IMG/VR virus record: IMGVR_UViG_3300031658_000107
Coordinates: 1 to 25,202 of that record
Direction: 5' to 3' (one strand)
Length of the DNA stretch: 25,202 nucleotides
Source of the DNA: a virus
Positions within the stretch are counted from its first letter, which is position 1. Every line of letters begins with the position of its first letter. This document shows, one piece after another, positions 737 through 23,711 of the stretch. Made by a program: the position numbers and the translations under genes. The notes below the pieces were generated by a model. It was not told the origin of the DNA. It searched no databases and saw only the letters and a program-made list of their open reading frames with translations.

Positions 737-1189
737 TCATACTTTCTCGTCTTTTGGGTAACGTATCATTGTTTCCCGGTAACGAAAATCCTTGTTCCGT
801 CCTTTATTAGGAACAAAACCAAACCCTTTGTAAAATTTAATGAGCCTACCTTTAGTTCCGCCAAATGCTGTGTCAGGCGTTAAGGCAATAATAGCATGTT
901 CATTATCGGCTTTATCAATTAGATCCTTCATTACTTTAGAACCGACGCCACGCCCGCGCAATTTTACTGGTACTACAATCTTACTAAGTACATAACCCTT
1001 TGTAGCATCGCCGTGTACATCAACTTCAATTTCTTTATTTTCGTCTTCCTTGGTGGTCTTTAAGACTGGCGGATTGTGGGCGTCTTTCTTAAAGCCTTTA
1101 ACTGTTGCTTTACGATTGCGAAATTTGCCTACTAGTATCTCGTCACCAATCTCTATATTAGGTAGTTGTAATATGTCTTTTATTTTCAT
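737..1189 (-). CDS. GNAT-family N-acetyltransferase
   Basis: The protein has 150 residues. The GNAT fold signature is clear: a beta strand (YVLSKIVVP, about 66-74), then the acetyl-CoA binding loop LRGRGVGSKVM (about 77-87) matching the R/Q-x-x-G-x-G/A motif, then a helix, and a late segment LIKFYKGFGFVPNKGRN typical of motif B. It should transfer an acetyl group from acetyl-CoA to an amine; the substrate cannot be told. The N-terminus MKIKDILQLP resembles those of the genes upstream (MRINEIL, MKINEVI, MRLIEF, MKIDDL), but no clear [L/I]xE protease-like site follows. If it belongs to the packaged-cargo set, it could modify host proteins at the start of infection, as T4 Alt does by ADP-ribosylation. 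It lies 18 nt after the 219-aa gene. Confidence 0.8.
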   Translation of the reverse strand: MKIKDILQLPNIEIGDEILVGKFRNRKATVKGFKKDAHNPPVLKTTKEDENKEIEVDVHGDATKGYVLSKIVVPVKLRGRGVGSKVMKDLIDKADNEHAIIALTPDTAFGGTKGRLIKFYKGFGFVPNKGRNKDFRYRETMIRYPKDEKV

Positions 1190-1207: not shown

Positions 1208-1867
1208 TTACTGCTGTATTGTAAATTTCCAAGAATCTACTTTATGTGGTAATATAACACCTCGTGGCGCACTGTATGACTGTACATCTACCCGATCTTG
1301 CCACCACACTCCATCTAAATTTAGTTTGCCTGCATATAATGGCAATACATATTCCAATACACCAGTCGATTCCATATCCGAATTATTCGTTTCTGATTTT
1401 AATTTGTCTGTCGGAATAATACCAGATTTGTCTACTACCACATCAACGTGATCCATATCACCATCGTATGCGTGTTCTACTCTTGCATCTTCCATTGAAT
1501 CAAACGTCCGACTCATCGTTTCACCCATATCATCATCAAACCAACTAACTGTCACAGTCTCCTGCTGTACCAAATAATCATTTGCCATAGCCCATTGTGC
1601 TATCTCATTATTTTGCTTTTTATTCAGTGCATGTGCATTCAAAAACGAATGACCTTCTTTCGTTGCACTATATGTATTACCAGTTACATGTCCTCTAGCA
1701 ATCTGTTTCCATTCATCCGGATGGGTACTAACACTTAACCCAGCACCTTCGTAACTGCCTTGCCTCTTGCTAGATGCGTCAAGTGACCCTACATGAAATA
1801 AATCAGATATATGCACTGTGGGCATACTACCATTTTCAACTATATTCAATATCTCATTAATTCTCAT
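1208..1867 (-). CDS. Uncharacterised 219-aa protein with capsid-targeting-like N-terminus
   Basis: The first residues MRINEILNIVENGS carry an I-V-E site at 9-11, like the gp21 cleavage site after T4 capsid-targeting sequences. The core begins with LFHVGSL and reaches EGAGLSVSTHPDEWKQIA, then acidic stretches, then LEYVLPLYAG near residue 170. A His-containing first motif, an S-x-S-T segment and a late glutamate recall the order of elements in ADP-ribosyltransferases. That is only a weak resemblance, and I would not name it as one without structural comparison. The start ATG overlaps the stop of the 35-aa micro-gene (ATGA at 1864-1867), so the two are translationally coupled. Coding is certain from the length and coupling; function is unknown. 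Confidence 0.75.
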   Translation of the reverse strand: MRINEILNIVENGSMPTVHISDLFHVGSLDASSKRQGSYEGAGLSVSTHPDEWKQIARGHVTGNTYSATKEGHSFLNAHALNKKQNNEIAQWAMANDYLVQQETVTVSWFDDDMGETMSRTFDSMEDARVEHAYDGDMDHVDVVVDKSGIIPTDKLKSETNNSDMESTGVLEYVLPLYAGKLNLDGVWWQDRVDVQSYSAPRGVILPHKVDSWKFTIQQ

Positions 1868-1971
1868 TTGTCTTCCTTCTTGAATTCACCCAAGATGCCT
1901 TTATCATCAATGTGATTACGTCTATCAATCCATCTAGAGCCTATTTCTGTTATTACTTCATTTATTTTCAT
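1864..1971 (-). CDS. 35-aa micro-protein consisting mostly of a capsid-targeting-like peptide
   Basis: This short ORF begins MKINEVITEIGSRWIDRRN and ends with a charged tail EFKKEDK. Its start ATG overlaps the stop of the nucleotidyltransferase-like gene (ATGA at 1968-1971). Its stop overlaps the start of the 219-aa gene (ATGA at 1864-1867). Perfect 4-nt overlaps on both sides, in an otherwise gene-tight operon, are strong evidence that it is translated. The N-terminus repeats the M-K/R-I-N-E pattern of its neighbours and has an I-T-E triplet at 7-9, a possible protease site. A gene this short, made largely of the shared leader, could be a small internal head peptide or a remnant of a larger cargo gene. 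It was too short for ordinary ORF calling. Confidence 0.65.
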   Translation of the reverse strand: MKINEVITEIGSRWIDRRNHIDDKGILGEFKKEDK

Positions 1972-2687
1972 GGCAACGTCAATCCTGCTTTAGCAAAGAA
2001 TGCTACAGCATCAGCAACTAGCGTGTCGTACTCGCTAGCCCTGTTTGCTTTCAACTTGGTATTAATAGATTCCACATCTTTCATGTCCTGCACAGTGGCA
2101 TTACCACCCAGCAATGTTTGTGCTATCTTAGTTGGGTCTTTAGTAACAACTTCGTCAGTGTCTCGACGCACTAACCCCATACTAGTAAACTTCATTCCCA
2201 TGGGTTTGGCTATGCTTCCTATCATTATTGCTCGATGCATGCCAGTAAATTCCGACGTTTCATCTGGACCAGCCATCTGGAACTGTAACCATTCTGTATC
2301 ACCAAACATGAGATCAGTCTGCACATAGCCATTGGCCTCATTACCGTTAATGGGCGTTTTAAAGTGTACATTGATGCCAGACTTTTTAACCCATTGTTTG
2401 ATGTCATCATTGGGCTTGTTTATTGCTACCCATTGTGCCAGCTTTGCTACTATATCATCCTTGCTTGTGCTGCTTTCATCCACAGCAATGTCCAGGTCTC
2501 CGCTAGTTTCTTTCTTGCCGGTTGTACCTAATTTATGGTCCACAAGTTGCAAACCAACTATAGGCTCGAGCCATGCCAGCGTAGAATCCACATCGGCTCG
2601 TTTGATTCTGGTTGTAACTGGGACCTTATTGGCGTCTCTGAATACATTTCCGCCTTCTTGTAGTATAGTAAATTCAATTAATCTCAT
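1968..2687 (-). CDS. Nucleotidyltransferase-like protein (pol-beta superfamily signature)
   Basis: The 239-residue protein begins MRLIEFTILQEGG, in which L-Q-E/G at 9-12 fits the T4 gp21 cleavage consensus [L/I]xE/[A/G/S]. After about 40 residues comes LGTTGKK followed by GDLDIAVD (64-70). This matches the hG[G/S]...DhDh signature of minimal and poly(A)-type nucleotidyltransferases, with D64 and D66 as probable metal ligands. The rest is helical and ends FFAKAGLTLP. It may transfer a nucleotide to RNA, protein or a small molecule; the substrate is unknown. The ribosome binding site AAAGGA is good. A degenerate late-like box (core TAAATA, about 2714-2721) lies in the 46-nt gap upstream, but I do not list it separately. 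It is coupled to the downstream 35-aa gene by ATGA. Confidence 0.65.
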   Translation of the reverse strand: MRLIEFTILQEGGNVFRDANKVPVTTRIKRADVDSTLAWLEPIVGLQLVDHKLGTTGKKETSGDLDIAVDESSTSKDDIVAKLAQWVAINKPNDDIKQWVKKSGINVHFKTPINGNEANGYVQTDLMFGDTEWLQFQMAGPDETSEFTGMHRAIMIGSIAKPMGMKFTSMGLVRRDTDEVVTKDPTKIAQTLLGGNATVQDMKDVESINTKLKANRASEYDTLVADAVAFFAKAGLTLP

Positions 2688-2733: not shown

Positions 2734-4551
2734 TTATTTTTTCCACGCCTTAACAGCATTAAAATTTTGCTGACTAAACTCTAACCGGTCCACTAACTTT
2801 ATAGCGCCGCCGTCTTGGCGTATAGCAACAAAACCTTCTGGGTTAGTTACTTTATAGCCATCGCCGTCTCTGACAAATGTTCTTAACCCAGCCACTTGAT
2901 GTAACTTCTGAATAATCATCAACTTAATTTCCACGATGCGCTTGTATACTGCTAACACACCCAATATGGCATTGGAATTGTCTTCTAGGAACTCTTCCTT
3001 CTGTTGCATCTTAATTATACGATTCTGGACACCAACGTTCTCTTCGCCTTTGTCCACTATAATCTTATCAATTTCAACTTGTAACTTACCTTTGTAAAAT
3101 GTTAAGAATGATGTTAAGAATTCATTTGTGCTTGTGACACTCTTGCCATCTCGTACCATCTGATTTACAAATGGTTTAATATACTTGCTGAATTCTTTGT
3201 TGTCAATGACAATGTTAAATTTGGCCGGACGTATCTTTTGCATTGTTGCTTGTATTGCCTTGATCTGATTGCCTATCTTGCTTAATTCAGCAGTCGTTAA
3301 TGTTGCTTTACCGGTCACATCTCTAAATGTGGCATCATCTACCCATACTTCCTTGGACTGATTAAGACCAGATACATCAACACCAAACCTTGCTTGCATT
3401 GTGGACAATTCTGCACCTTCGTACGCCGTATGAAATACTATCCCCATCTTAGCACGAAGCATTCGCTTTGCCAAATCGCTGTCTGCTGGCATTGCATATG
3501 TAATTGTGTTTGGTGTGAATGAAAGCATGTTCTCGCCGTTTATTGTTTCTGTCACAAGTGATTTACGATCAAACATAAAGTCGCCCTGTAATACACCACC
3601 GATACCCAATTCAGGCAATACGTTTAGTGCTAGTTCAAGTGTTTGCCATAAGCCATCCTTGTCACCATAATACTTCATCAATGATGCTTTATTCTTAGCC
3701 AATCGTGGTTCAGTGTTGAATACAGATTTTGTACCAACAAAAAACTTGCCATCTGCTGGGTCTATACCACATATAATAGCAGGAGCGCCATCCCATTTTG
3801 TTGTAATTGTAGCTTTTTCGCCTGTACCGTCAGATAACATTCCAGCTACTTGCATGATATATTCTATTGCTTGCTCTGCGCCTTCATATCCATTATTGAA
3901 CACAAGATCTTCCAGGTGTTCCATGTGAGTATTTTTACCTGCACCTGCTTCTGCTAGATACCGATTAAAACTCTTCTCTATAGATTCCGTTGGTTTGTTT
4001 CTTGTACTATCGTTGTGTGTGCGCTTAAACTTACCACTGGGTGTTGCTGCACTAGGTGTTGCTGCACTAGGTGTTGCTGCACTAGGTGTTGCTGCACTAG
4101 GTGTTGCTGCACTAGGTGTTGCTGTGCTAGGTGTTGCTGTGCTAGGTGTTGCTGCGGAGGCACTTGTTGCATAAAATTTATCAACTACTGTTGTGATGTA
4201 CTTAGACACTTCTGAATCTTTACTGGCATTGCCAGTAAACGGCATGTTAGTTAGTATTTCTTGACGTTCAGCTGGTGCTCCCATAAACTGTTTAAGCCAT
4301 GCGTTAAACTCTTCATATGTTAGTTTCTTGCCCGTGTGTTGTAACTCTTTGTTGTACCGGTCACTCCATACCTCTAGCATACTGTCTACCATTTTTTTCT
4401 TTCTAAGTACAGTGCCGCGTTTACTGTTACTGGCAATGGCAGCGGCTCTTTTTAATCTGCGCTGTCCAGCAGCCGAGTCTTTGCCACGTAATGCATTTAC
4501 TACACCCGTGGCAAAGTTCAAGGGCCCCTCATTTAAATCATCTATTTTCAT
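2734..4551 (-). CDS. Large DUF6267-like protein with nucleic-acid-ligase-like motifs and a repeat linker
   Basis: The protein has 605 residues in three parts. Residues 1-130 are a basic helical domain that starts MKIDDLNEGPL, with L-N-E/G at 6-9 as a possible capsid protease site. Residues about 131-172 are a low-complexity linker of five-residue A/T-A-T-P-S units. From about 190 comes the main domain: FNRYLAEAGAG (second L-A-E/A site at 199-202), NTHMEHLEDLVF, then TTKWDGAPAI with K252-x-D-G like motif I of ATP-dependent ligases. GGVLQGDFMFD recalls motif III, and near the C-terminus PEGFV (571-575) and AIKLVD (K585) recall motifs IV and V. From memory, the region after 195 matches the phage DUF6267 family, whose members often begin at the FNRYLAEA-like segment. 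I infer a covalent nucleotidyltransferase or ligase with an added N-terminal extension. Start and upstream stop overlap (ATGA at 4548-4551). Confidence 0.7.
   Translation of the reverse strand: MKIDDLNEGPLNFATGVVNALRGKDSAAGQRRLKRAAAIASNSKRGTVLRKKKMVDSMLEVWSDRYNKELQHTGKKLTYEEFNAWLKQFMGAPAERQEILTNMPFTGNASKDSEVSKYITTVVDKFYATSASAATPSTATPSTATPSAATPSAATPSAATPSAATPSAATPSGKFKRTHNDSTRNKPTESIEKSFNRYLAEAGAGKNTHMEHLEDLVFNNGYEGAEQAIEYIMQVAGMLSDGTGEKATITTKWDGAPAIICGIDPADGKFFVGTKSVFNTEPRLAKNKASLMKYYGDKDGLWQTLELALNVLPELGIGGVLQGDFMFDRKSLVTETINGENMLSFTPNTITYAMPADSDLAKRMLRAKMGIVFHTAYEGAELSTMQARFGVDVSGLNQSKEVWVDDATFRDVTGKATLTTAELSKIGNQIKAIQATMQKIRPAKFNIVIDNKEFSKYIKPFVNQMVRDGKSVTSTNEFLTSFLTFYKGKLQVEIDKIIVDKGEENVGVQNRIIKMQQKEEFLEDNSNAILGVLAVYKRIVEIKLMIIQKLHQVAGLRTFVRDGDGYKVTNPEGFVAIRQDGGAIKLVDRLEFSQQNFNAVKAWKK
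4036..4155 (-). repeat. Eight 15-bp tandem repeats encoding an Ala/Thr/Pro/Ser linker
   Basis: Eight in-frame copies of a 15-bp unit (plus-strand form ACTAGGTGTTGCTGC with small variants) lie inside the 605-aa gene. Each codes for one A-A-T-P-S or T-A-T-P-S block. The copies at the minus-strand 3' side are nearly identical, which suggests recent expansion by slippage. The peptide is a flexible linker between the N-terminal extension and the ligase-like domain. Copy number may vary between related phages. Confidence 0.9.
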
Positions 4552-4826
4552 TCTTTGCTTTCCTTGCTTTCCTTGCTTTCCTTGATTCGTGTAATTGCCC
4601 GAGAAAACTTCTTTGTGTCGCGTCCTCGGATACTGTTCACTAGCCTACGCTCTAACTCCAACGCCTGATCTGCGCTATAATTTTCATTTATGTAATCTAT
4701 TAGATTAATAGCACTTGATATAACATGCTTTGCACGAGATTCCACTATGTGTTCTTTGTCCTTTTCGATGCATAAAGAATTTAGCTCGTCTAGTATGCTT
4801 CTTACTTCCTGTGATTCGTGACTCAA
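4548..4826 (-). CDS. Hypothetical helical protein with ESK repeats at the C-terminus (92 aa)
   Basis: The start is TTG at 4826, preceded by GGAG at a distance of about 10 nt. There is no internal methionine and an in-frame stop lies just upstream, so TTG is the only reasonable start. The product begins MSHESQEVRSILDELN, is mostly charged helix with NLIDYINENYS near residue 45, and ends IRGRDTKKFSRAITRIKE plus three E-S-K units. I know of no function; small proteins of this pattern occur in T4-like phages. The last codons form a 9-bp repeat rich in GGAAAG that doubles as the ribosome binding region of the next gene, whose ATG overlaps this stop. A late-type box (4851-4858) lies just upstream, so this is probably the first gene of a late unit covering the putative capsid cargo. 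Confidence 0.65.
   Translation of the reverse strand: MSHESQEVRSILDELNSLCIEKDKEHIVESRAKHVISSAINLIDYINENYSADQALELERRLVNSIRGRDTKKFSRAITRIKESKESKESKE
4553..4588 (-). repeat. 9-bp tandem repeats at a gene end (ESK units)
   Basis: Four consecutive units, the middle two identical (plus-strand CCTTGCTTT), encode the C-terminal E-S-K repeats of the 92-aa protein. On the minus strand each unit contains GGAAAG, a Shine-Dalgarno-like purine run, and the last lies a few bases before the ATG of the 605-aa gene. Copy-number change would lengthen the 92-aa protein while keeping a ribosome binding site in place. Confidence 0.8.
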
Positions 4827-4850: not shown

Positions 4851-4858
4851 TATTTATG
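4851..4858 (-). promoter_or_regulatory. Late-type promoter box CATAAATA
   Basis: The minus strand reads CATAAATA, 7 of 8 to TATAAATA. It overlaps the stop of the upstream radical-SAM gene and lies 24 nt before the TTG start of the 92-aa gene. Placement at the head of the putative cargo block fits late expression, but one mismatch and the coding overlap keep confidence modest. Confidence 0.4.
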
Positions 4859-5966
4859 CAAGATTAAATAAAGTAATATACTTGGTTGGATACAATGCAC
4901 CAAATGACTGGTTACGCAAACGATCCAGTGCTGAGATATTACTATCAAATGTGCTGTTCCCAGACAACGCAATTGCTTCGGCATTTAATGCTTTAATAAT
5001 AAAAGGGAAATTATACAACCGTTGTTTTAAATGCTCTTTTACTGCCGTATTTAGATTTTTAATATTGTACCATGCTGGATTGGTTAACAATGTGTACGTG
5101 ACATCAAATCCCTGGGACTGTACCCAGGCATCAAACTCTGGCACATTGTGTATATTGATTGCCGAAACGGTGCTATTGACTTTAAATATAATGTTGTCTG
5201 TGTTTGTGGCATAAGTGTCCCATTGGGAAATATTGGATTGCACCCGATCCCATTTGGCTGGATACCTGCAGTACTCAAATACTTGATGTGTGCCATCCAA
5301 GGAGACTGTGATATTAACCTGTTTGAATTTCGTCCATTGTTCAGTTAATGCTGGTGGCGGTAAGAACGTGCCATTGGTCATGTACGAAAGCAGAATGGAT
5401 CCTGGATTGTCCAAACTGCGTAGCAGATCTGCTTGCTCCTGTACCTGATCAGCAAAGGGCTCGCCTCCTATAAATTGCATAAATCGCAAGTTTGATTGAT
5501 GTGTCAGTACCCAGTTTACATACTCGGGATCTTTGAGATGTCTAGCAGGCCTAGCGTAATACGGTTCAATTGCTATGTCAAGTTCAGCCAGTCGGTTGTA
5601 ATCTGATATCCAACGAGACGATGAATTAGGGTGACATATACGACATGCCAAGTTACATACCTGTGTAATAGCTAGTTCAATATACACCGGGTCAGCATGA
5701 TCAAGTATTTCAAAATTGGCAGCTATTGGTGCATGCATTTGTCTTAGAGATACTACTCCAGCGCCCTCTGCTCTCCAGCAGTCAGTACATTCTGTTGGCT
5801 GCTCTCCATCCAGGAATTGCTGTTTTATTTTTTTAAGTTGGCCCGACTGTTGGTATTGTTTCCAATCAGAAACCTCCTCAAAATCAGAAATAGTACAGCA
5901 TGGTTGCATTTTACCATCAGCACGTATGCTGATGGCAAGCCAAGGAAGTTTACAAAATTTACTCAT
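4854..5966 (-). CDS. Radical SAM protein with N-terminal cysteine cluster (paralogue A)
   Basis: The 370-residue protein has the radical-SAM [4Fe-4S] motif C-x3-C-x2-C at C104, C108 and C111 (within QVCNLACRICHP). FIGGEPF follows, the usual GGEP SAM-binding motif, then SYMTNGT and NITVSLDG strands of the TIM-barrel. Before the core is a cysteine-rich start (KFCKLPW; CC at 23-24; CTDCW at 60-64) typical of twitch/SPASM-type auxiliary cluster regions placed at the N-terminus. It should cleave S-adenosylmethionine to a 5'-deoxyadenosyl radical. The target is unknown; SPASM/twitch relatives modify peptides, proteins or small molecules. It is a paralogue of the gene just upstream (5976-7118), with the same layout and a gap of only 9 nt. 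Both may depend on an electron donor such as the ferredoxin at 13763-14011. Confidence 0.85.
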   Translation of the reverse strand: MSKFCKLPWLAISIRADGKMQPCCTISDFEEVSDWKQYQQSGQLKKIKQQFLDGEQPTECTDCWRAEGAGVVSLRQMHAPIAANFEILDHADPVYIELAITQVCNLACRICHPNSSSRWISDYNRLAELDIAIEPYYARPARHLKDPEYVNWVLTHQSNLRFMQFIGGEPFADQVQEQADLLRSLDNPGSILLSYMTNGTFLPPPALTEQWTKFKQVNITVSLDGTHQVFEYCRYPAKWDRVQSNISQWDTYATNTDNIIFKVNSTVSAINIHNVPEFDAWVQSQGFDVTYTLLTNPAWYNIKNLNTAVKEHLKQRLYNFPFIIKALNAEAIALSGNSTFDSNISALDRLRNQSFGALYPTKYITLFNLA

Positions 5967-5975
5967 TTGTTATAG

Positions 5976-7118
5976 CTATGTGGTTATATTTAACAGTTTG
6001 GCATAAGCAGGGAATAATGCGTTAAATGATTTATTGTTTATTTTATCCATTGCTTCCACATACCGTTTTGTGTCGGCCAGATGTGATGTCTGGCCAGGGT
6101 GTTGTTTCATAAAATCAATAAACGGTTCAAGTTGCTCTATTCCCTGCCAAGCATCATATATCATCGGGCGAGCGTTTTCTGGAATGTGTCGTATTCCGTA
6201 ATACTCGGGCGTAACCAATGGAGCTAGTACAACTTTTATTTTGTTATGCATTGCCCAATCCATTAATTCTGGCAATGCCATAACGTTCAACACCGACACT
6301 GTGGTCATCAAACACAACTCCACATCTGGATGGTCCTGTCTGACTTGTAAATAAAAGTCAACTGCTCGTAGGCAATCCTGCCATTTGCCTGGATACCTAA
6401 GATATTCAAACGCATCGCCTATACCGTCCACTGAAATGTTTATTTCCAGTCGTGGAATTCTGTGCCATTGTTCCACTATCAACGGGTCTGGCATTATGGT
6501 CCCGTTAGTAATGTATTCCAAACTTCTAAAATGTGCCATATTAAGATTTTTTAATAGGTCAACATGCTCAGCAACTTGCCCTAGAAATGGCTCTCCGCCT
6601 ATCAATGTCAATCTTTTCAGATGTTTATACTTTAGTATACTCTGCACATATTGCGAATCGGTTAATCGCTTGGGCACTGCACTGGTCTCATTGAACTTCA
6701 CTGATATTTCATTGTTGGTTGCTTGTAACTTCTTTTCCAATGCAACCCACTTAGTGGAACTTGCCGAGGAACATATGCTACATACCAAATTACATATGTT
6801 GCCGGTGTTCATTTCAATATCAACCACACCATTTTCCAACACCGTGTAATCTATGTCGTTGCCATCCTGGTGGTTGGATTCTGTGTTTATTATCATTCTT
6901 CGACTGAAGCCACCTGCGGCTTCGGTCTCCCAACATTGAAAACAAGCCTCTGGTTCTATACCATTCAAAAAATTCTCTTTGAATTGTGCCAACTGTTTGT
7001 TCTTGGGATAAGTAGATACATCCCGGGGATTCTGATCAGTTCCTGTGAAACAACATGGACTGATGTAGAGTTGCCCTATCACCATGTCGGTCCAAGGAGC
7101 ATAACAAAACCTACCCAT
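5976..7118 (-). CDS. Radical SAM protein with N-terminal cysteine cluster (paralogue B)
   Basis: This 380-residue protein is organised like its neighbour. The N-terminal cysteines are RFCYAPW (C5), CC at 22-23 and CFQCW at 59-63. The radical-SAM motif C-x3-C-x2-C is at C109, C113 and C116 (CNLVCSIC). Then come LIGGEPFLG, EYITNGT and EINISVDGIGDAFEYLRYPGKW, the last closely echoed in paralogue A (YCRYPAKW). Both end with an SFxALxP...LLN/LFN segment. The pair looks like a duplication followed by divergence. It overlaps the helicase gene by 8 nt (7111-7118), so it is transcribed with the replication genes. The substrate is unknown, and the two could act on the same target one after the other or as a heterodimer. 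Confidence 0.85.
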   Translation of the reverse strand: MGRFCYAPWTDMVIGQLYISPCCFTGTDQNPRDVSTYPKNKQLAQFKENFLNGIEPEACFQCWETEAAGGFSRRMIINTESNHQDGNDIDYTVLENGVVDIEMNTGNICNLVCSICSSASSTKWVALEKKLQATNNEISVKFNETSAVPKRLTDSQYVQSILKYKHLKRLTLIGGEPFLGQVAEHVDLLKNLNMAHFRSLEYITNGTIMPDPLIVEQWHRIPRLEINISVDGIGDAFEYLRYPGKWQDCLRAVDFYLQVRQDHPDVELCLMTTVSVLNVMALPELMDWAMHNKIKVVLAPLVTPEYYGIRHIPENARPMIYDAWQGIEQLEPFIDFMKQHPGQTSHLADTKRYVEAMDKINNKSFNALFPAYAKLLNITT

Positions 7119-17393: not shown

Positions 17394-18020
17394 TTAGTTT
17401 AGTTTTCTGTATACACAGAATTTTGCTTCAGGCTTAGAGCCTTCATAATACTTGTCTTCTTCGAGAAATAAGCATTCGATGCTGCCGTTGTTGATTAATG
17501 TATCGAACTTGGATTCGAATCCATGTGATTGCCATACTCGTGAATTTACGGTACAAGCAAAATATCCATTTGGTTTAAGGACACGGAAGATCTCGTCTAA
17601 TGATTCTGATCCTACGTGTTTATATGTGAATGTGCCAGATGATATAATAGCGTCGAAGTGGTTACTAGGCATCATAAGAGGTTCCATTATGTTGGCTACT
17701 CTTGCGCTTTCGTATATGCCCTTTTCCATTGCCTTGTCGACCATATCATCTGAGATGTCGATGCCGTGTAGATTGGTGTATCCTTCTTCTTTCAATAGAG
17801 CACAGGTCATGCCTGTGCCGCAACCTACGTCCAATATGTTTGCATCTTTGTCTGTTACGTGGCCGCACAGTAAGCGAGCGATAGTCATTGGTGCTATGTA
17901 ACCAAGTCCATCCAACTGCTCATCGTAATTCTCTGACCAGCCGTTGTAAAACTCGACCATTGCGTCACTGTTTGCGATAGTGTACGCTTCGTTGATATAA
18001 TCTCTGCCACTCTTTGCCAT
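17394..18020 (-). CDS. Class I SAM-dependent methyltransferase
   Basis: The 208-residue protein has motif I NILDVGCGTGMTCALL (61-76; the SAM-binding glycine loop), acidic motif II LHGIDISDDMV, motif III-like FDAIISSGTFTY and LKPNGYFACTVN. This is the Methyltransf_11/25 layout of small-molecule or lipid/quinone methyltransferases, not of DNA methylases: there is no DPPY or PC motif. The beginning FYNGWSENYDEQLDGLGYIAP is typical of enzymes such as METTL27- and UbiE-related proteins. The substrate is unknown. It has its own sigma70-type promoter (18047-18075), so it is the first gene of the uvsW operon. Confidence 0.85.
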   Translation of the reverse strand: MAKSGRDYINEAYTIANSDAMVEFYNGWSENYDEQLDGLGYIAPMTIARLLCGHVTDKDANILDVGCGTGMTCALLKEEGYTNLHGIDISDDMVDKAMEKGIYESARVANIMEPLMMPSNHFDAIISSGTFTYKHVGSESLDEIFRVLKPNGYFACTVNSRVWQSHGFESKFDTLINNGSIECLFLEEDKYYEGSKPEAKFCVYRKLN

Positions 18021-22715: not shown

Positions 22716-23711
22716 TTAAATTAGCTCCTGGTCAAAAAACCATCGTTTTGATTTAATTGATACTGCTTTGTTTACATCTAACATCTGTAATTCGTTTTCT
22801 GTTAGTACGTCGATTTCTTCCTTGATTATGTCACCAATCACCCATTTGATAAATGATCCCAAATGCTTCCTGTCGAAATCTGGTGTGAATGAATCTATTC
22901 CTAATTTAAAATCATACACTGTAGGCAACACTTCTCTAGCAGCCTGTTCCAAGCGGTTGGGTGTAACCGCGTATTCAACAAACTCCATTATAGAGTTTAC
23001 TTTCTCAACATCAACAGGAGCCAATGTTCTTACTTTGGAAACATTGTGCTTTTTTCCTTTGACTTTAAATGATATTAGCTCGCCGTTGTCAGTGATATGT
23101 TCCCATACAACCCCTTCACCTGTACCACTAACACCAAAGAACATGCCAACTGGACATTGGGCCTCGATCTCTTGTGTTATCGCAATCAGACAGTTTTGGG
23201 CAAGTTCAGGATTAGCAAAGTCGATAACAATTTCCTCTCTTTGAACACTCAAGGCATCAATGATGCAATTCTGCAGTGATTTAAATTCTGGGCGTTTTCT
23301 AATCCATTTTTCAGTAATACTGCTTATTAGCCTTACGCCAAAACAATAAAAGAATTTGGGCACCTGTGTCACTGCTGCGCCAGACTGGATTCCTTTTCCT
23401 GCAAATTCACCGTATATAACAACCGTGTCGGTTACCGTTGCCAAATTGTCTTCTATTAGTTGTTGTTTGTATTTCAAAAAAGCATCACTGCGAGATTTTA
23501 CCCATCTCGCAAAGCCAGCGTTATCATTGTCTACATTGATTTCGTTGTTCTTGGATTGCACTGTTAAGGTATCGTCTGGCGCAATAACCACAGACGCATT
23601 CGTGCCATGCACCTTAACTGTTCCGTAGAATTTTAGTATAGGATCACGACCATGCCTTGTTACATCGCGTATAACGTTCCTAAACTGAACAATGGATGGA
23701 TATTTGATCAT
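22716..23711 (-). CDS. RNA ligase, T4 Rnl2 family
   Basis: The 331-residue protein has motif I KVHGTN with nucleotidylated K33, motif III GEFAGKG (101-107), motif IV EGVVWE (199-204) and motif V FKVKGKKH (215-222), all in order and spaced as in T4 Rnl2. The C-terminal helical part (about 225-331) fits Rnl2's own C-terminal domain. It seals nicks in RNA, using ATP through an enzyme-AMP step. In T4 relatives, RNA ligase can undo host anticodon-nuclease damage. Its gene is the first of an operon with a consensus sigma70 promoter (23734-23762), so expression is expected early. Confidence 0.9.
   Translation of the reverse strand: MIKYPSIVQFRNVIRDVTRHGRDPILKFYGTVKVHGTNASVVIAPDDTLTVQSKNNEINVDNDNAGFARWVKSRSDAFLKYKQQLIEDNLATVTDTVVIYGEFAGKGIQSGAAVTQVPKFFYCFGVRLISSITEKWIRKRPEFKSLQNCIIDALSVQREEIVIDFANPELAQNCLIAITQEIEAQCPVGMFFGVSGTGEGVVWEHITDNGELISFKVKGKKHNVSKVRTLAPVDVEKVNSIMEFVEYAVTPNRLEQAAREVLPTVYDFKLGIDSFTPDFDRKHLGSFIKWVIGDIIKEEIDVLTENELQMLDVNKAVSIKSKRWFFDQELI

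Follow-up and report, generated by a model that had tools for sequence, protein, structure and literature searches.

What does a phage protein family with no assigned function do, and is it carried in the head? This question is raised by a gene in a stretch of 25,202 nucleotides (positions 1 to 25,202 of IMG/VR virus record IMGVR_UViG_3300031658_000107; hereafter the window), which carries T4-like replication genes as identified with Pfam and PHROGs. The encoded protein matches the Pfam family DUF6267 over residues 207-601 (E-value 7e-109) and also belongs to phrog_455, whose function label is 'unknown'. Neither Pfam nor PHROGs assigns DUF6267 a function, our literature search found no paper naming it, and NCBIfam holds no family at E <= 0.1 for this product or for two neighbouring products considered below (a Pol-beta-like protein and that of 1208-1867). 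A first-pass annotation, made from the sequence alone, had proposed a ligase or capping-type enzyme with two possible protease sites. Our analysis supports DUF6267 as a new ligase-like family, many of whose members carry head-targeting leaders and whose neighbours fit end repair. To the fuller reading, which draws on sequence and predicted structure, we give a probability of roughly 0.6: DUF6267 would be a new family of ligase-superfamily nucleotidyltransferases, many members of which are packaged and injected, with a Pol-beta-type enzyme as partner. This is a combination of known kinds, an RNA ligase fold and the internal proteins of T4, rather than a novel type of system. The gene and its predicted catalytic elements are as follows.

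2734-4551, minus strand (read from 4551 to 2734): DUF6267 open reading frame (ORF), 605 residues, from the ORF list and Pfam
2737-3948, minus strand: predicted ligase-like core, residues 202-605, from an AlphaFold2 model of residues 197-605 and VIA-align
3775-3804, minus strand: motif I, TTKWDGAPAI, with the predicted nucleotide-accepting Lys252 (K252 in 99 of 99 aligned cores, D254 and G255 in 98 of 99 each)
3718-3744, minus strand: motif Ia-like FFVGTKSVF, residues 270-278 (K275 in 98 of 99)
3568-3594, minus strand: motif III, VLQGDFMFD, with D324 replacing the usual Glu (Asp in 99 of 99, never Glu)
3421-3444, minus strand: motif IIIa-like GIVFHTAY, residues 370-377 (H374, T375 and Y377 in 99 of 99; position 373 is F in 69 and W in 27)
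2902-3294, minus strand: helical insertion of about 130 residues between motifs IIIa and IV, residues 420-550 (helices within 224-354 of the model)
2827-2841, minus strand: motif IV, PEGFV, with E572 (E572, G573 and V575 in 98 of 98, plus one gap)
2785-2805, minus strand: motif V, AIKLVDR, with K585 and R589 (each in 98 of 98, plus one gap)

Relatives were collected from viral contigs (80 loci, plus 80 kept of 599), from assemblies of bacteria or archaea (27 contigs) and from phage records, where DUF6267 is present in 467 of the 50,697 searched; 453 of these 467 have names that mark them as Synechococcus phage, cyanophage or Prochlorococcus phage. The 196 hits gave 177 ORFs closed at both ends, of which 107 distinct ones, representing 105 loci, were kept. 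The core alignment holds 99 sequences, namely 97 of 98 references (L139 was excluded), the window protein and its closest relative, L002. The first-pass annotation had claimed the ligase motifs I, III, IV and V in that order, and they are indeed found as TTKWDGAPAI from residue 250, VLQGDFMFD from 320, PEGFV from 571 and AIKLVD from 583. It had also named homologues lacking the lysine as evidence against a nucleotidyltransferase; Lys252 is kept in all 99 cores. Five distant members fused to other domains retain K252, D254, G255, K275, D324, H374, E572, K585 and R589 in five of five cases. This conservation bears on the idea that the protein is a structural component inside the head whose ligase fold is dead, an idea that the packaging-type leaders described below and the label 'virion structural protein' on the small upstream gene would suit. 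With the motif Lys, Asp, Glu and Lys present in 98-99 of 99 cores and in all five fusion members, we regard a dead fold as very improbable. Ahead of motif I, at window positions 3907-3936 (residues 206-215), a further element N-x-H-x-x-H-x-E-D is near-invariant among the 99 cores (N207 in 94, H209 in 96, H212 in 98, E214 in 99 and D215 in 93), with H209 replaced by Arg in all five distant fusion members. Could it be a 5'-phosphate, metal or leaving-group site?

The AlphaFold2 model of the core has a mean predicted local distance difference test score (pLDDT) of 90.4 and a predicted template modelling score of 0.88. VIA-align was run on the 997 chains ranked highest by Foldseek, and ligases occupy 49 of the best 50 rows listed (one of them named only as a chain of a non-homologous end joining ligation complex), the exception being an Hsp70 fragment with 73 residues aligned. 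The first 12 rows are all Naegleria gruberi RNA ligase, which we take to be Rnl5, at Z 8.2-8.5 (best match Z 8.5, root-mean-square deviation 3.6 over 179 residues; PDB 6vt0 and others). A fungal tRNA ligase (7.6), an editosome ligase (7.5), T4 Rnl2 (7.4) and T4 Rnl1 (7.3) are also listed, and rows 31-50 are DNA ligases. These Z values are modest, and the tool gives a warning below 8; we place the weight on a single superfamily filling the list. Against BFVD, the 17 best-ranked matches (E <= 0.001) are all to phage proteins whose names mention no ligase and which probably belong to DUF6267 itself. The best-placed named ligase is the 'RNA ligase' of Agrobacterium phage Atu_ph07 at rank 18 (E 0.012, probability 0.91, 324 residues), and at ranks 18-50 a ligase or capping enzyme is named in 16 of the 33 matches, all 16 of them with E-values of 0.01 or more. 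The structural comparison that the first-pass annotation had proposed thus points to a ligase fold for the predicted core, which at the level of the fold goes against its other refuting condition, a K252 lying away from any nucleotide pocket. Its alternative of 'ligase or capping-type enzyme' stands as regards the ligase superfamily, to which both motifs and fold point, and no result favours capping over ligation; a capping enzyme is kept as an option, with RNA ligases leading the fold list and no search for capping partners having been made.

Comparison with characterized ligases indicates how DUF6267 differs from them. The Naegleria ligase has the same order of Lys, Asp, Glu, Glu and Lys, and its motifs IV and V lie 14 residues apart (as judged from mutant names in entry titles) compared with 13 in DUF6267. 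In contrast to that enzyme, DUF6267 contains the helical insertion and an Asp in motif III, and the modelled part contains nothing equivalent to the N-terminal OB domain that Naegleria RNA ligase carries. T4 Rnl2 and the window's own Rnl2-like protein (22716-23711; Pfam, PHROGs) share the fold (2hvq, Z 7.4) and the motif order; unlike Rnl2, DUF6267 has K-L-V-D-R instead of KxK in motif V and gives no profile match. Rnl2 has a C-terminal domain, for which there is no room in the window DUF6267 protein as its chain ends about 20 residues past motif V. The traits that separate DUF6267 are therefore the motif III Asp, the single motif V Lys, the insertion at about 420-550 and the short sequence past motif V, and the first two of these mean that it is not a canonical Rnl2. 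Membership of the Rnl2 family was rejected, as the window protein has no Pfam RNA_ligase hit at E <= 1 and hhalign gave no match to eight Rnl2 proteins. Given the Rnl2-like protein at 22716-23711, DUF6267 is also not the sole ligase-like enzyme of this phage. The family varies in form: the member in S-CREM2 is only 295 residues long, and in S-PM2 (L082:5007-6786) the annotation splits DUF6267 between two genes, motifs IV and V falling in the second together with a 'cytitidyltransferase' domain. BFVD holds a 591-residue S-PM2 entry that matches DUF6267 as a single chain.

Directly ahead of the core lies a candidate signal for entry into the head, and ahead of that an additional N-terminal part.

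3949-3972, minus strand: internal leader SFNRYLAE, residues 194-201, with a predicted prohead-protease cut before A202 (profile score 13.7)
4035-4155, minus strand: A-T-P-S/A linker, residues 133-172, a 15-bp tandem repeat in 8.1 copies (repeat analysis)
4156-4527, minus strand: added N-terminal cassette, residues 9-132 (phmmer matches to L002, L047 and an ORF upstream of DUF6267 in L091)
4528-4551, minus strand: weak N-terminal leader candidate MKIDDLNE, residues 1-8, with a possible cut before G9 (LNEG from residue 6)

Leaders were scored with a nine-residue profile trained on 84 DUF6267 leaders. On a profile of the other DUF6267 leaders, SFNRYLAEA (residues 194-202) scores 13.7, a value reached by 5 of 357,135 background 9-mers. 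The same scoring gives 14.6 for the T4 internal proteins IPII and IPIII, both of which start MKTYQEFIAEA, and 10.8 for IPI, which starts MKTFKEFTSTTTPVSTITEA. According to the accessible part of one report (PMC9026906), the first ten residues of T4 IPIII suffice for head incorporation, and its processing is governed by residues 8 and 10. DUF6267 relatives commonly begin directly ahead of the core with MKSYKQFLIE/A, MKFSEFLTE/A, MHTFKQFLAE/N and similar sequences (the slash marks the candidate cut). A leader-like site, as defined by a loose pattern, occurs within 14 residues of the core in 88 of 104 distinct members (three of the 107 had no anchor motif and were excluded), compared with a mean of 22 and a maximum of 32 in shuffled sequences; the leader-bearing members are mostly metagenomic, and the homologues of HTVC008M and Melnitz-2 also bear leaders, which end in LLVE and KYITE. 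Thus, the second L-A-E/A site of the first-pass annotation (LAEA from residue 199) does lie directly before the core, and its expectation that shorter relatives begin at the FNRYLAEA segment is confirmed. By analogy with T4 and from the leader statistics, this site would be a T4-like capsid-targeting leader. The leaders of T4 IPI-IPIII are likewise N-terminal, with hydrophobic-x-Glu at their end followed by Ala, Gly or Ser; the DUF6267 cargo differs in being a predicted enzyme, whose packaging and cleavage we infer. Seven members without the site (L160, L171, L140, L153, L157, L120 and L162) start MFSFKGFITK or similar, lacking the P1 Glu.

The first 190 or so residues had been described as an added cassette with its own leader, joined to the core by an A-T-P-S repeat linker. 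The cassette and the linker are borne out: residues 2-182 match the N-termini of L002 (E 2.5e-15) and L047 (E 2.2e-7), as well as the product of an independent ORF that immediately precedes DUF6267 in L091 (E 2.7e-6), and the linker coincides with the tandem repeat. Given this stand-alone relative, the window gene has the appearance of two adjacent genes joined into one, with the second leader retained inside. L047 has also kept its internal leader (score 11.6); L002 has KYLAEA at the same place, with a score below 6. Among viral contigs, seven pattern matches to the cassette were found and none was confirmed. The two proposed protease sites did not fare equally. The internal LAE/A site stands at 13.7, whereas the cassette's own LNE/G is weaker and unsupported by the profile (-6.5), although its position and the similar starts of L002 (MRIVDLNEG) and L047 (MKINELNEG) make a cut there plausible.

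The profile was also applied to proteins outside the DUF6267 family. The virion list of S-CREM2 comprises 52 of 219 proteins (PMC10665884, in its available part), and the first 32 residues of each protein were scored. Virion proteins score higher (Mann-Whitney p 0.004), and they make up the top four, five of the top six (p 0.003) and six of the top ten (p 0.013), the ranking being led by a cytidylyltransferase, a kinase, a Cas9-like nuclease, gp13 and an S-adenosylmethionine (SAM) hydrolase. As a separate observation, gp12 and gp6 (L211), the Cas9-like nuclease and SAM hydrolase from S-CREM2 virions, have similar leaders (RFASFMAE/A and DFDSFLEE). The leader profile offers a route to listing head cargo from sequence that can be checked on existing virion proteomes. 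Genes near DUF6267 were examined at 100 of the 105 loci, five phage-record loci being excluded. Scores of at least 9.5 occur within residues 1-40 of 66 of 783 distinct neighbour genes of other families, and within residues 41-80 of 7 of 783. HxGH nucleotidylyltransferases (the cytidylyltransferase) are found at 42 of the 100 loci by jackhmmer and carry a leader in 18 of 44 cases; a one-seed phmmer search placed them near DUF6267 at 56 of 197 loci. P-loop kinases also occur, those scanned being one adenylate-kinase-like and one AAA_33/zeta-like protein, and HAD neighbours include two in a cluster with leaders and one whose scan matches the polynucleotide-kinase profile phrog_415 (E 5.5e-4); these family counts may include multi-domain proteins more than once. 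In the available parts of the respective reports, the cytidylyltransferase is described from virions of S-SM1 (PMC3037559), of S-SCSM1, as NMNAT (PMC9602691), and of S-SZBM1 (PMC9146016), with the authors of two of these papers stating that carry-over could not be excluded.

The genes on either side of DUF6267 in the window, which lie with it downstream of a primase and a helicase, are the following.

1968-2687, minus strand: Pol-beta-like nucleotidyltransferase by AlphaFold2 and VIA-align, with a leader-like MRLIEFTILQE/GG start (leader score only 3.2)
1208-1867, minus strand: downstream gene with a leader-like start, MRINEILNIVE/NG, by eye (leader score -3.8)
737-1189, minus strand: downstream GNAT acetyltransferase (Acetyltransf_1, 21.9 bits against a cut-off of 20.7)
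4548-4826, minus strand: small upstream gene matching phrog_11854, 'virion structural protein' (E 4e-18)

The product of 1968-2687 matches no Pfam family at E <= 1 and thus no Pfam Pol-beta family. Its AlphaFold2 model has a pLDDT of 91.3, and all 50 rows listed by VIA-align are family X polymerases (Pol-beta, lambda and mu; Z 9.8-10.3). A link between DUF6267 and Pol-beta is based on this adjacency and on fusion at five loci: DUF6267 and Pol-beta share a single ORF, in either order, at five of eight viral Pol-beta loci, and the fusion ORFs of L202 and L206 additionally carry a cytidylyltransferase-like domain (just under the Pfam cut-off in L202). Pairing of a ligase with a Pol-beta-type enzyme is also described for RNA repair by RlaP, the RNA-ligase-associated Pol-beta (PMC7824862, in its available part). 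Unlike RlaP, the window protein lacks a Pfam match and has head-targeting-type leaders nearby. Polyvalent proteins, as described in the accessible part of PMC5512222, are likewise injected and include ART, GNAT and Pol-beta domains; in contrast, the domains at the loci considered here are separate genes or short fusions, and that part of the report does not link RNA ligases to polyvalent proteins.

A related arrangement occurs in jumbo phages. Atu_ph07 and Sinorhizobium phage Phosso share the order helicase, a gene of about 100 residues, the small gene, a gene of 239-246 residues, a ligase-like gene and Pol-beta. The small gene (E 2e-10 in Atu_ph07, 2e-20 in Phosso) and the Pol-beta gene (E 3e-19 and 4e-25) are homologous to those of the window, and Atu_ph07 has a homologue of the GNAT gene two genes past Pol-beta (E 4e-16). 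The 239-246-residue gene, at the place of the cassette, has no detectable similarity to the window cassette. The protein in the place of DUF6267 has E-K-L-D-G as motif I and E-G-V-V as motif IV, with Glu in motif III (by eye) where DUF6267 has Asp. It matches Pfam RNA_ligase below the curated cut-off in both Atu_ph07 (E 0.002, positions 3-169 of 171) and Phosso (E 0.085 over 2-82), and neither protein is hit by Pfam DUF6267; the Atu_ph07 protein is closer to Pfam RNA_ligase than DUF6267 is. An hhalign profile of Atu_ph07, Phosso and PA5oct sequences aligns with the 99-sequence core alignment (E 1.1e-4, probability 56), and with that alignment plus the five fusion members (E 1.9e-5, probability 78). 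The alignment covers motifs I to IIIa, placing KLDG on KWDG and PNSIRY on PNTITY, with motifs IV and V outside it; single-sequence hhalign comparisons are weak (probability 3-14), and the jumbo-phage profile gave no match to Rnl2. Judging from the profile alignment and the below-cut-off RNA_ligase match, DUF6267 probably shares ancestry with this jumbo-phage family, which in turn is distantly related to RNA ligases. In PA5oct, EST35_0228 (L215:306-1646) is a 446-residue hypothetical protein with KIDG, EIE, EGYV and KIVDK. It is homologous to the Phosso ligase-like protein (E 1e-11) and lies near the same Pol-beta family that the Atu_ph07 and Phosso genes adjoin, three genes ahead of a Pol-beta homologue annotated as 'structural protein' and 'ESI-MS/MS', that is, detected by mass spectrometry. 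Separately, a 797-residue ORF (L204:1291-3681) begins like an HxGH nucleotidylyltransferase, continues with KIDG, NIE, EGIV and KIIGK in ligase order in its middle part, and also contains the Pol-beta domain. It may represent another ligase-like family that takes the position of DUF6267, with an hhalign probability of only 3-14.

These results suggest the following course of events. The leader would draw the DUF6267 precursor into the prohead core, where the prohead protease would cut after L-x-E and the protein would be kept in the head. Cuts after Glu8 and Glu201, the latter the better supported, would release the cassette and the ligase (residues 202-605) separately, and, as in T4, the protein would be injected along with the phage DNA. 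Judging from fold and motifs, Lys252 would take AMP from ATP, and the core would pass the AMP to a 5'-phosphate end and then seal this end to a 3'-OH. Acting jointly, the Pol-beta-type enzyme would restore lost nucleotides and the ligase would close the break. The likeliest substrate would be RNA, such as tRNA, that host defences have cleaved, with nicks or gaps in incoming DNA second; RNA is preferred because RNA ligases lead the fold list and RlaP provides a precedent for a ligase with Pol-beta. That the two enzymes instead mend nicks, gaps and ends of the injected genome is a reading that the preferred explanation leaves open, so that the probabilities of the two overlap, and taken alone we consider it rather unlikely. 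The family X DNA polymerases matched by the neighbour's model, the DNA ligases at rows 31-50 for DUF6267 and the location downstream of primase and helicase would all suit it, whereas RNA and tRNA ligases head the structural list and the Atu_ph07 counterpart resembles Pfam RNA_ligase. Furthermore, family X polymerases are very numerous in the PDB and their lead need not mean DNA.

A broader extension, which we put forward tentatively as a possibility that falls short of an even chance, is that T4-like phages carry a capsid-preloaded end-repair kit comprising the ligase, a family-X-like gap filler, a nucleotidylyltransferase, kinases and HAD phosphatases, each with its own leader and some made as polyproteins cut by the prohead protease. 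If so, repair of cleaved RNA or entering DNA could precede any phage gene expression. Similarly, should the members with leaders prove to be ligases packaged in the head, injection of repair enzymes would give phages an early countermeasure to RNA-cutting defences.

Several observations weigh against a packaged ligase with a Pol-beta partner. As regards the fold, Foldseek against the PDB returned nothing at E <= 0.001 (best E 0.16) and ranked carbonic anhydrases highly (root-mean-square deviation about 18), a profile search of PDB sequences with DUF6267 listed no ligase, direct PDB sequence searches gave no meaningful match, and the missing hhalign match to Rnl2 and the departures in motifs III and V count here as well. 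As regards the partner, a Pol-beta gene is present in only L002, L003 and L004 among the 192 DUF6267-query loci (L002-L193, with flanks of 4-5 kb or less), which means that it is not a general companion. As regards packaging, 16 of 104 members have no leader-like site, the three genes downstream of DUF6267 in the window score low (3.2, -3.8 and -4.8), and EST35_0228 carries no mass spectrometry mark in the PA5oct annotation. Three hand-written leader patterns gave weak or null enrichment in S-CREM2 (virion against rest: 3 of 52 and 11 of 167; 14 of 52 and 36 of 167; 9 of 52 and 12 of 167, p 0.034), and as these were tried earlier, the profile result was not the first test made on this phage. 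Additionally, the S-CREM2 DUF6267 protein, gp87, starts MNKATKPLTHIEHPED without a leader and is absent from the 52-protein virion list, and the portions of the virion literature available to us name no DUF6267 protein as a virion protein. The S-CREM2 cytidylyltransferase, which starts MKNFSSFLTE/A, is in that list (PMC10665884, available part); this contrast with gp87 is a single case that fits the leader idea, and it shows that detection in the head does not extend to all DUF6267 proteins.

A rival explanation is that the ligase-like enzyme is made and used in the infected cell, its leader-like start being an assembly or interaction tail and not a capsid signal. All four cyanophage members examined (L082, L085, L086 and S-CREM2) lack a leader, as this explanation would have it, and the absence of gp87 from the S-CREM2 list and of any DUF6267 protein named from virions in the available literature also speak for it. 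It sits poorly with the closeness of the leader to MKTYQEFIAEA of T4 IPII and IPIII, with the presence of such leaders on unrelated neighbour genes and with the ranking of S-CREM2 virion proteins first, and we judge it improbable, if a serious contender. The motif departures raise a different idea, namely an altered, non-ligating nucleotidyltransferase that adenylylates a protein or small molecule, possibly in NAD+ metabolism together with the NMNAT-like cytidylyltransferase. The Asp in motif III and the single Lys in motif V could be taken this way, and a cytidylyltransferase-like domain lies in the same ORF in L189, L202 and L206, with L202 and L206 matching a nicotinamide-nucleotide adenylyltransferase profile (E 0.002-0.003). 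However, Pol-beta, kinase and HAD neighbours suit end repair better and the Lys, Asp, Glu and Lys positions are conserved, which makes a non-ligating enzyme distinctly unlikely in our estimate.

The remaining neighbours and a few minor features complete the description of the locus. Our searches found no relative of the 1208-1867 product. The GNAT protein of 737-1189 corresponds to positions 2690-2799 of the 3,925-residue phage profile phrog_10691, so giant proteins in other phages may contain this domain too. In the window, the DnaB-like helicase is separated from the small gene by two radical-SAM-like ORFs (4854-5966 and 5976-7118); in L002 only about 320 bases separate the helicase from the DUF6267 ORF. 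Finally, a methyltransferase-like ORF (by eye) at 17394-18020, which starts MAKSGRDYINEA, has the highest leader score (9.7) of the 31 N-termini in the window, and this may reflect chance or a further cargo protein.

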